This document shows, piece by piece, positions 57,888 through 58,493 of a stretch of DNA of 64,000 nucleotides. Made by a program: the position numbers and the translations under genes. Under the pieces are notes generated by a model that worked only from the letters and a program-made list of their open reading frames with translations, searched no databases and was not told the origin of the DNA. Each line of letters starts with the position of its first letter. Within the stretch, counting starts at the first letter, position 1. This DNA is from an uncultured Archangium sp. (lineage in GTDB: Bacteria > Myxococcota > Myxococcia > Myxococcales > Myxococcaceae), in contig CAIVGN010000197.1 of assembly GCA_903905455.1 (NCBI GenBank), positions 1 to 64,000 of the forward strand, in the 5' to 3' direction.

Positions 57888-58493
57888 GTGCGCGGCTCTC
57901 AACAGATCCGAATCCTCGTCGTCGATGACGAGTCCGATAACGCTGAACTTTTCAAGGCCCTCTTGATCAAGGAGGGCTACCTCGTCTCGGTCTTGCTCGA
58001 CCCGACGAAGGTGGTGCCCACGCTCAAGGAAGGCAACTTCCACCTCGTCATCCTCGACATGATGATGCCCAAGCTGTCGGGCACCGAGGTGCTGGAGCAG
58101 ATCCGCGAGCTCGACGACGACGTGGCGGTGATCGTCGCCACCGGCTTCCCCACCGTGGAGACCGCGGTGGCCAGCTTGAAGCTCTCGGCCAGCGACTACG
58201 TGAAGAAGCCGGTCGACCCGGTGGCCTTCATCGAGACCGTCAAGCGCGTGCTCGAGAAGAAGGGCATCACCCGCGACCCCGAGGCCGAGCTGCACCGCAC
58301 CATCGGTCGCTTCATTCGCGAGGGGCGCACGCGCCAGAACCTCACCCTCAAGCAGCTCGCGCGGCGCACGGGGCTCTCGGTCTCGCTGCTCTCGCAGATC
58401 GAGCGCGCCGAGTCGTCGGCGTCGATCAGCTCGCTGTACCGCATCGCCAGCGCGCTGCGCGTGCGCATGAGCGAGCTCTTCGCCGACGTCTGA
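57888..58493 (+). CDS. Receiver-XRE response regulator
   Basis: The GTG-started, 201-residue protein has a receiver domain with intact residues: acidic DDES, phosphoacceptor Asp in VILDMMMP, Thr in VIVATGFP, and Lys in YVKKPVDP. Then comes a linker and a Cro/C1-type helix-turn-helix (RQNLTLKQLARRTGLSVSLL and ISSLYRIASALRVRMSELFA). An XRE domain is an uncommon output for a response regulator, so phosphorylation may control binding to phage-repressor-like operators. It lies 24 bases after the FHA protein gene, probably in the same transcript, and ends at the convergent gene's stop (TGATCA shared). Confidence 0.92.
   Translation: MRGSQQIRILVVDDESDNAELFKALLIKEGYLVSVLLDPTKVVPTLKEGNFHLVILDMMMPKLSGTEVLEQIRELDDDVAVIVATGFPTVETAVASLKLSASDYVKKPVDPVAFIETVKRVLEKKGITRDPEAELHRTIGRFIREGRTRQNLTLKQLARRTGLSVSLLSQIERAESSASISSLYRIASALRVRMSELFADV

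Follow-up and report, generated by a model that had tools for sequence, protein, structure and literature searches.

Myxobacterial genomes are very rich in two-component and Ser/Thr-kinase genes, and how these two networks connect is an open question. It is raised in concrete form by a locus of an uncultured Archangium sp. (GenBank assembly GCA_903905455.1, contig CAIVGN010000197.1, of which the first 64,000 nucleotides were analysed and are here called the window), where a gene for a response regulator with an XRE (Cro/C1-type) output follows a gene whose product has two FHA domains. A first-pass annotation, made from the sequence alone, proposed that the pair may join two-component and Ser/Thr phosphorylation signals in one operon. 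Are the two proteins parts of one signaling arrangement, or simply neighbors? The features that bear on this question are collected in Table 1.

Table 1. Features of the FHA-regulator locus and of related loci; positions refer to the window unless a locus handle precedes them.
Feature	Position	Strand	Description
Candidate -10 / imperfect palindrome TACAGTGATGGTAGAA	55985..56000	+	upstream of FHA gene, weak
Double-FHA, probable single-TM, TPR-like protein	56010..57863	+	617 aa
FHA1	56010..56294	+	residues 1-95, alignment and model (about 2-95 in model)
Disordered linker of FHA protein			residues 98-179, between FHA1 and FHA2, AlphaFold2 model
Candidate phospho-Thr switch motif STAVIRID (Thr167)	56505..56528	+	disordered linker before FHA2
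FHA2	56586..56861	+	residues 193-284; closest solved structures GarA/OdhI
Probable membrane helix	56952..57014	+	residues 315-335, hydrophobic sequence, low model confidence
TPR-like helical region	57138..57851	+	residues 377-614, model
Response regulator with XRE (Cro/C1) output	57888..58493	+	201 aa, GTG start
Receiver domain	57912..58241	+	residues 9-118, Pfam PF00072, AlphaFold2 model
Phospho-acceptor Asp57 codon	58056-58058	+	inside receiver domain
HTH_3 DNA-binding domain	58314..58478	+	residues 143-197, Pfam PF01381; nearly invariant core 151-184
PilZ-domain genes	L133:6735-8039, L134:6629-8020, L135:5806-7170, L138:8148-9494	opposite	

In the regulator, both the receiver (Response_reg, E=1.1e-24) and the DNA-binding domain (HTH_3, E=1e-12) score above the curated Pfam cut-offs, as do the HTH_31 and HTH_26 models. 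The receiver and HTH_3 families are likewise matched (E<=0.001) by all 42 sequences of an alignment composed of the window protein and proteins from 41 of 80 fetched loci, themselves the best 80 of 480 relatives in a scan of genome contigs. The residues of a working receiver, Asp13, Asp14, Asp57, Thr85, and Lys107, are invariant in all 42, so that the first-pass description of an intact receiver joined to a Cro/C1 helix-turn-helix is borne out. In the AlphaFold2 model computed from this alignment (mean pLDDT 85), a receiver of five strands and five helices is joined by a short linker to a DNA-binding domain of five helices. Among the Foldseek matches listed, the nearest solved folds are receivers and regulators of the StyR, PorX, EutV, and FixJ types, with none of the 50 described as a receiver-XRE protein, and the NCBIfam matches listed (25 of 109) all fall far under their cut-offs. 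The fusion had also been called unusual, which holds within the window genome: among 143 matches to the regulator, the only full-length one is the gene itself, the remainder either stopping by residue 174 or, in two cases, covering the HTH part only. Its mechanism is probably that of an ordinary two-component protein, with an output that is uncommon.

This protein is an old, deeply conserved, and usually single-copy regulator of myxobacteria that is unusually constrained. Samples of up to 300 genomes comprised 195 for the phylum of the window and 282, from a larger group, for that of Sorangium; judged from these sizes, the two organisms appear to belong to different GTDB phyla. The fusion is no chance finding: the whole regulator recurs in 118 of the 195 genomes (E<=1e-30; 97 of 149 among those of good quality), and it is a single match in 117 of these 118, the exception (G147) having two pieces on two contigs. 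In the Sorangium sample it occurs in 123 of 282 genomes, with more than one copy in three (G417, G426, and G446, the last with three matches, on contigs C252, C116, and C403, instead of the usual one). It is absent from the f3 genomes among the matches listed (G031-G051 and G054), and no match was found on plasmids at E<=1e-20. The literature searched, which consisted mostly of papers available without subscription, yielded no description of this receiver-XRE regulator or of its pairing with the FHA gene.

For comparison across this range, loci L038-L074 and families f1, f2, f6, f7, f8, and f10 are here called the Myxococcus side and loci L075-L117 the Sorangium side, labels suggested by the genera present (Myxococcus, Corallococcus, and Archangium on the one, Sorangium and Polyangium on the other) and by kinship, many members being unclassified metagenome-assembled genomes. 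Mean pairwise identity rises from 56.7% in the receiver to 78.7% in the HTH domain and 93.8% in its core (residues 151-184) in a set of 46 sequences, the window protein and 45 from the 80 fetched loci, chosen to span both sides. Across the aligned regulators the block LTLKQ..RRT.LSVSLLSQIERAESSAS.SSL is all but constant. As the core is nearly unchanged between the Myxococcus and Sorangium sides, its target site has probably stayed fixed and its regulon is likely to matter; judged from sequence, so frozen a core would fit a DNA site that is common to many targets or unable to change.

The FHA gene, whose GTG start was judged by where homology begins, ends 24 bp before the regulator gene (stop at 57863, start at 57888). 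Pfam recognizes two FHA stretches in its product (PF00498, E=1.7e-34), and the AlphaFold2 model (mean pLDDT 74, pTM 0.28) comprises two beta domains, a helix at residues 315-335, and two helical blocks, 377-486 and 520-614, both well modelled. The position of the regulator behind a gene for a two-FHA membrane protein is thus as first described, the membrane helix being probable: model confidence is low here (pLDDT about 46-51), and it is chiefly the hydrophobic character of the helix that points to a membrane span. We infer from this topology that the TPR-like tail would be periplasmic. Counted in 21 chosen sequences, the FHA1 residues Arg27, Ser41, Arg42, His44, Asn63, and Gly64 are invariant, and the corresponding contact residues of FHA2 (R, S-R-x-H, and N-G) are kept in 19-20 of the 20 sequences that have the domain. 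A PilW-like NCBIfam match to the protein falls far under its cut-off. Scaffold proteins of the Mkap group were considered as a possible identity; MkapA and MkapC are called scaffolds in a paper whose text mentions neither "FHA" nor "TPR," and an identity of the FHA-TPR protein with an Mkap scaffold is not claimed.

FHA2 and the linker before it resemble known phosphorylation switches. By sequence, the best PDB matches of FHA2 are GarA and OdhI (4e-11), and the GarA/OdhI segment TTSVFRADFL lines up with STAVIRIDQL of the FHA protein. One paper (PMC8546545) prints the GarA/OdhI substrate peptide, SDEVTVETTSVFRADFL (...ETTSVFRADFL), as phosphorylated by PknG, describes the ETTS motif as conserved across OdhI/GarA homologues, and names an intramolecular FHA switch in its reference list. 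In the alignment of 21 FHA proteins the linker has few conserved columns, and among them are Thr167 (20 of 21 sequences), Ile170 (19 of 21), and Asp173 (20 of 21). The pattern T[AS][VITLM][IVLMF] occurs in the linkers of 50 of 53 double-FHA homologues (mean 2.8, maximum 8 in shuffled linkers), T[AS][VI][IVLF]R in 34 (mean 0.1, maximum 1), and T..[IVLMF]R in 42 (mean 3.0, maximum 9); an initial, stricter linker Thr pattern was found in 30 of the 53. As these patterns were chosen after the sequences had been seen, and as the 53 homologues are related members of one phylum whose counts are not independent, the shuffle test overstates the case. Family models place the protein outside both known families, with 83.9 bits against a cut-off of 200 for OdhI and 105.2 against 125 for FhaB (NCBIfam). 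Taken together, the protein is probably a membrane-bound switch controlled by a Ser/Thr kinase.

How firmly the two genes are tied can be judged from their arrangement in other genomes. By tblastn coordinates, the regulator is preceded on its own strand by an FHA gene less than 2.5 kb away in at least 100 of the 118 genomes that carry it: at least 82 of 93 in f1, at least 8 of 10 in f2, at least 4 of 8 in f11 (where linked genes are not always adjacent), 2 of 2 in f8, 2 of 2 in f10, 1 of 1 in f7, and at least 1 of 2 among others. Of the other 18 genomes, 5 have the FHA gene on another contig, 10 lack one among the matches listed, and 3 show some other arrangement. Among the f1 genomes counted as linked, 69 of 82 have a same-strand gap of 12-189 bp, and in f2 the regulator is often preceded by a tandem pair of FHA genes. 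An independent count from gene calls, restricted to loci of the Myxococcus side whose upstream flank exceeds 2.5 kb, finds the FHA gene adjacent in 49 of 53, or 45 of 49 once genomes fetched twice are reduced to one; the downstream enoyl-CoA hydratase (ECH) gene is adjacent in 42 of 59 loci, 40 of 54 distinct. The four misses (L056, L119, L122, and L130, corresponding to genomes G137, G021, G024, and G157) are all linked by tblastn coordinates and arise because the open frame of the regulator runs on upstream (415-1512 aa), spoiling the gap. Beyond the pair, a block of rhomboid, FHA, regulator, ECH, and biotin carboxylase genes is conserved as a whole. A Myxococcus-type block is also found in an entry titled Comamonas sp. 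KCTC 72670 (L057, BNCN01000001.1), probably a mislabelled organism, whose regulator matches that of the window as well as the M. xanthus one does (70%). For M. xanthus, where we take ftsZ to be MXAN_5597, the tags MXAN_5590-5593 were guessed for the block; no paper in the literature searched has these tags, and they are not claimed.

In other loci the pair comes apart. In the fetched flanks of the Sorangium-side loci an FHA gene was found in 0 of 43 at E<=1e-8 (8 of the 43 having less than 2.5 kb upstream). Conversely, loci L182, L183, and L193 (f6) and L187 (G146) keep the rhomboid-FHA-biotin carboxylase block with an intact FHA gene and no regulator, which was not found in their genomes at 1e-30 either. 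In f11, three loci (L133, L134, and L138) have an opposite-strand gene for a PilZ-domain protein between the FHA gene and the regulator, and a fourth (L135) has one next to the regulator. The regulator without the FHA gene and the FHA gene without the regulator together indicate that neither needs the other to persist, so that the pair is not obligate. A survey of relatives, which the first-pass annotation had suggested, supports the pair as conserved on the Myxococcus side and finds it separated on the Sorangium side, in f6 and G146, and in the f11 loci with an intervening PilZ-domain gene. Separation of the two genes in relatives, which that annotation had named as counting against its proposal, is thus observed in part; of the proposed union of two signaling systems in one operon, the linkage stands, the obligate bond does not, and a joint pathway in which the pair connects two-component and Ser/Thr phosphorylation is plausible.

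Several observations concern individual neighborhoods. Three of the four f11 PilZ-domain proteins also contain a receiver, and a link to c-di-GMP is possible in this family; a protein combining FHA and GGDEF domains, encoded a few genes from the regulator at L131:5420-6817, again touches on c-di-GMP. In one genome a 702-aa protein with a caspase-like (Peptidase_C14) match is encoded just upstream of the regulator (L139:2296-4404).

On the Sorangium side the regulator keeps other company. Of the 37 loci scanned, 24 (within L076-L116; for example L094:9865-9939) have a same-strand tRNA-Pro(CGG) gene immediately before the regulator, and in L087, L106, and L117 such a gene is found on the opposite strand no more than about 0.55 kb away; this linkage of tRNA and regulator is very old. 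The gene for the rRNA methyltransferase RsmB often precedes the tRNA-Pro-regulator pair, the RsmB cluster being present in 19 Sorangium-side loci; other contexts include TatA/TatC and an iron-sulfur protein, among others. Between tRNA-Pro and regulator, just before the start codon, L097, L099-L102, and L105 have short palindromes with differing arms (for example TGCAGTTACAACTGCA and GCAATTACAATTGC), which could form an RNA hairpin or serve as an operator.

Kinase genes adjoin the regulator in some of these loci. A Pkinase gene starts 40 bp past the regulator in L088 and 81 bp past it in L112, is the next gene in L086, and comes second after it in L082; as L086, L088, and L112 have the same upstream gene run and L082 and L112 have downstream genes in common, these cases probably reflect one event. 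In L091, in a different context, the regulator lies 80 bp beyond the end of a Pkinase gene. With 27 kinase matches over 110 loci that have a called regulator, chance adjacency is not rare enough for these neighbors to prove a link, and they are best treated as a lead. No kinase is present among six window genes scanned with Pfam. In L113 a gene for a GAF-HisKA-HATPase histidine kinase starts about 60 bp downstream of the regulator orthologue. One-way searches with this kinase for a cognate partner gave best matches of 40-41% identity in the window genome and M. xanthus AM003 and 38% in Sorangium, measured over the catalytic part, from which no partner was named.

A site through which the regulator might act was sought upstream of the FHA gene. 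Applied to 31 upstream regions, palindromic EM recovered TtCaGctATagCtGaA, with a score of 79.6 compared with 22-29 in shuffles, a score driven by near-identical sequences of the Myxococcus group; there, EM and footprinting place an imperfect palindrome at the -10 region of the putative promoter of the FHA gene. The window site fits this palindrome with its arms swapped (score 14.4, 1.4e-6 per position), and in a scan of 53 regions the Sorangium-side loci L097, L098, and L104 fit it at 3-7e-5 per position. Elsewhere the best scores are at most 11.5 in f2, f7, f8, f10, and f11, 3.4-7.1 in f6 and G146, and 9.0 in L152 of the same genus; a palindrome-like site at the -10 region is seen in two Myxococcaceae groups only. 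A strict pattern occurs at 0-4 places per genome in six genomes (0 in that of the window), fewer than the 18-43 of a backwards control, and a pattern derived from the site of the window itself has one match there at up to two mismatches, 0.51 being expected. Scanning 55800-58700 against consensus promoters and terminators returned no promoter-like site or terminator, and EM, footprinting, and upstream-region scans found no operator common to the lineages. The palindrome is possibly a promoter element and is offered as a weak lead only.

The explanation that best accommodates these observations as a whole, and to which we give about an even chance of being right, combines a core regulator with a tethered FHA switch resembling GarA/OdhI, the two being co-expressed on the Myxococcus side. 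A histidine kinase encoded away from the regulator would phosphorylate Asp57, altering the pairing of receivers and thereby aligning two XRE domains with a conserved operator. We regard the regulator as most likely such an Asp-phosphorylated transcription factor, co-expressed with the FHA protein. At the membrane, the latter would act like a tethered GarA/OdhI: a Ser/Thr kinase would phosphorylate Thr167, an FHA domain of the same or a neighboring molecule would bind the phosphorylated residue, and this binding would free or block the FHA domains for partners. The TPR tail may sense or bind something across the membrane. Of this scheme, the intactness of the catalytic and contact residues and the conservation of architecture, motif, and linkage are observed; every phosphorylation step, DNA binding, the topology, co-transcription, and a joint function of the two proteins are proposed.

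A simpler reading, which we regard as a serious if somewhat doubtful possibility, is that both genes are useful and unrelated and lie side by side because a whole chromosomal block has been conserved. Much of the linkage could indeed have been inherited with the wider block from rhomboid to biotin carboxylase, each gene persists without the other, and an opposite-strand gene intervenes in some f11 loci; against this, adjacency to the FHA gene is better kept than adjacency to the ECH gene among distinct loci, the same-strand gaps of f1 are short, and f2 repeats the FHA gene in tandem before the regulator. Autoregulation, frequent among XRE regulators, suggests instead that the regulator may be chiefly a local autorepressor of the FHA-regulator operon, acting through the palindrome over the -10 region and relieved by phosphorylation. 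In agreement with this, the Myxococcus group has a palindrome-like site in a constant position before the FHA gene, matched in the window with swapped arms; but the scores fade in other lineages and even within the genus, what the sites share amounts mostly to an extended -10, the EM score is inflated by near-identical sequences, and the promoter scan finds nothing. As the HTH is frozen also in lineages that have no FHA gene, the regulator should have other targets, and local autorepression as its chief role seems improbable.

The two proteins might also meet directly, the FHA protein binding a regulator phosphorylated by a Ser/Thr kinase and holding it at the membrane. Besides the gene linkage and the kinase genes found beside the regulator elsewhere, precedent for such an input comes from a paper on convergence of two-component and Ser/Thr-kinase signaling in other systems, in which Ser/Thr kinases phosphorylate other response regulators (PMC12471899). 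The invariant Thr residues of the regulator, however, are Thr85, the receiver switch residue, and Thr153 and Thr161 in the HTH, and all three are equally conserved in lineages that lack the FHA gene, which leaves direct retention improbable. A bolder reading can also be formulated, in which different lineages have attached Ser/Thr-phosphorylation inputs to a myxobacterial master regulator whose DNA-binding code is frozen: on the Myxococcus side the input would be a membrane-tethered FHA switch of the GarA kind, and in other branches it would come from Ser/Thr kinases. We think this reading unlikely; if true, it would represent a recurrent, hard-wired junction of two bacterial phospho-signaling languages. 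A regulator that is usually single-copy, widely conserved, and almost unchanging where it reads DNA offers a good starting point for exploring a core regulon. On the Ser/Thr side, the motif similar to that of GarA narrows a direct test to Thr167 and one neighboring gene.

Like regulators with OmpR, NarL, or NtrC outputs, the window regulator has a complete, phosphorylatable N-terminal receiver and a C-terminal DNA-binding part, and it differs from them in that its output is a Cro/C1 (HTH_3) domain. In XRE/Cro-C1 factors such as SinR and PuuR, the sensor part is a ligand, cupin, or peptidase domain; the window regulator shares with this class an HTH_3 domain above the curated cut-off and a five-helix DNA-binding domain in its model, whereas its sensor part is a two-component receiver.

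The FHA protein invites comparison with GltG and NfsG of the Myxococcus gliding and spore clusters, with which it shares an FHA domain and, in the case of GltG, predicted transmembrane character; the NCBIfam GltG model matches it weakly (78.4 of 650 bits). GltG and NfsG are described as having one FHA domain and a TonB part and as encoded in machine clusters (PMC3169522 and PMC2875238). The window protein, by contrast, has two FHA domains and TPR-like repeats and is encoded beside a regulator; Pfam finds no TonB match in it, and its C terminus is formed by TPR-like helices in the model. With GarA/OdhI the protein shares an FHA domain of that type (FHA2), and it has a candidate Thr motif of similar pattern (TxVxRxDxL) about 25 residues before this domain, to be compared with ETTSVFRADFL (PMC8546545). 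GarA/OdhI is a small soluble protein, whereas the window protein, much longer and with its probable TM helix, is probably membrane-bound, has two FHA domains and a TPR-like tail, and has one Thr in place of TT. With these differences, the FHA protein probably works like the GarA switch.
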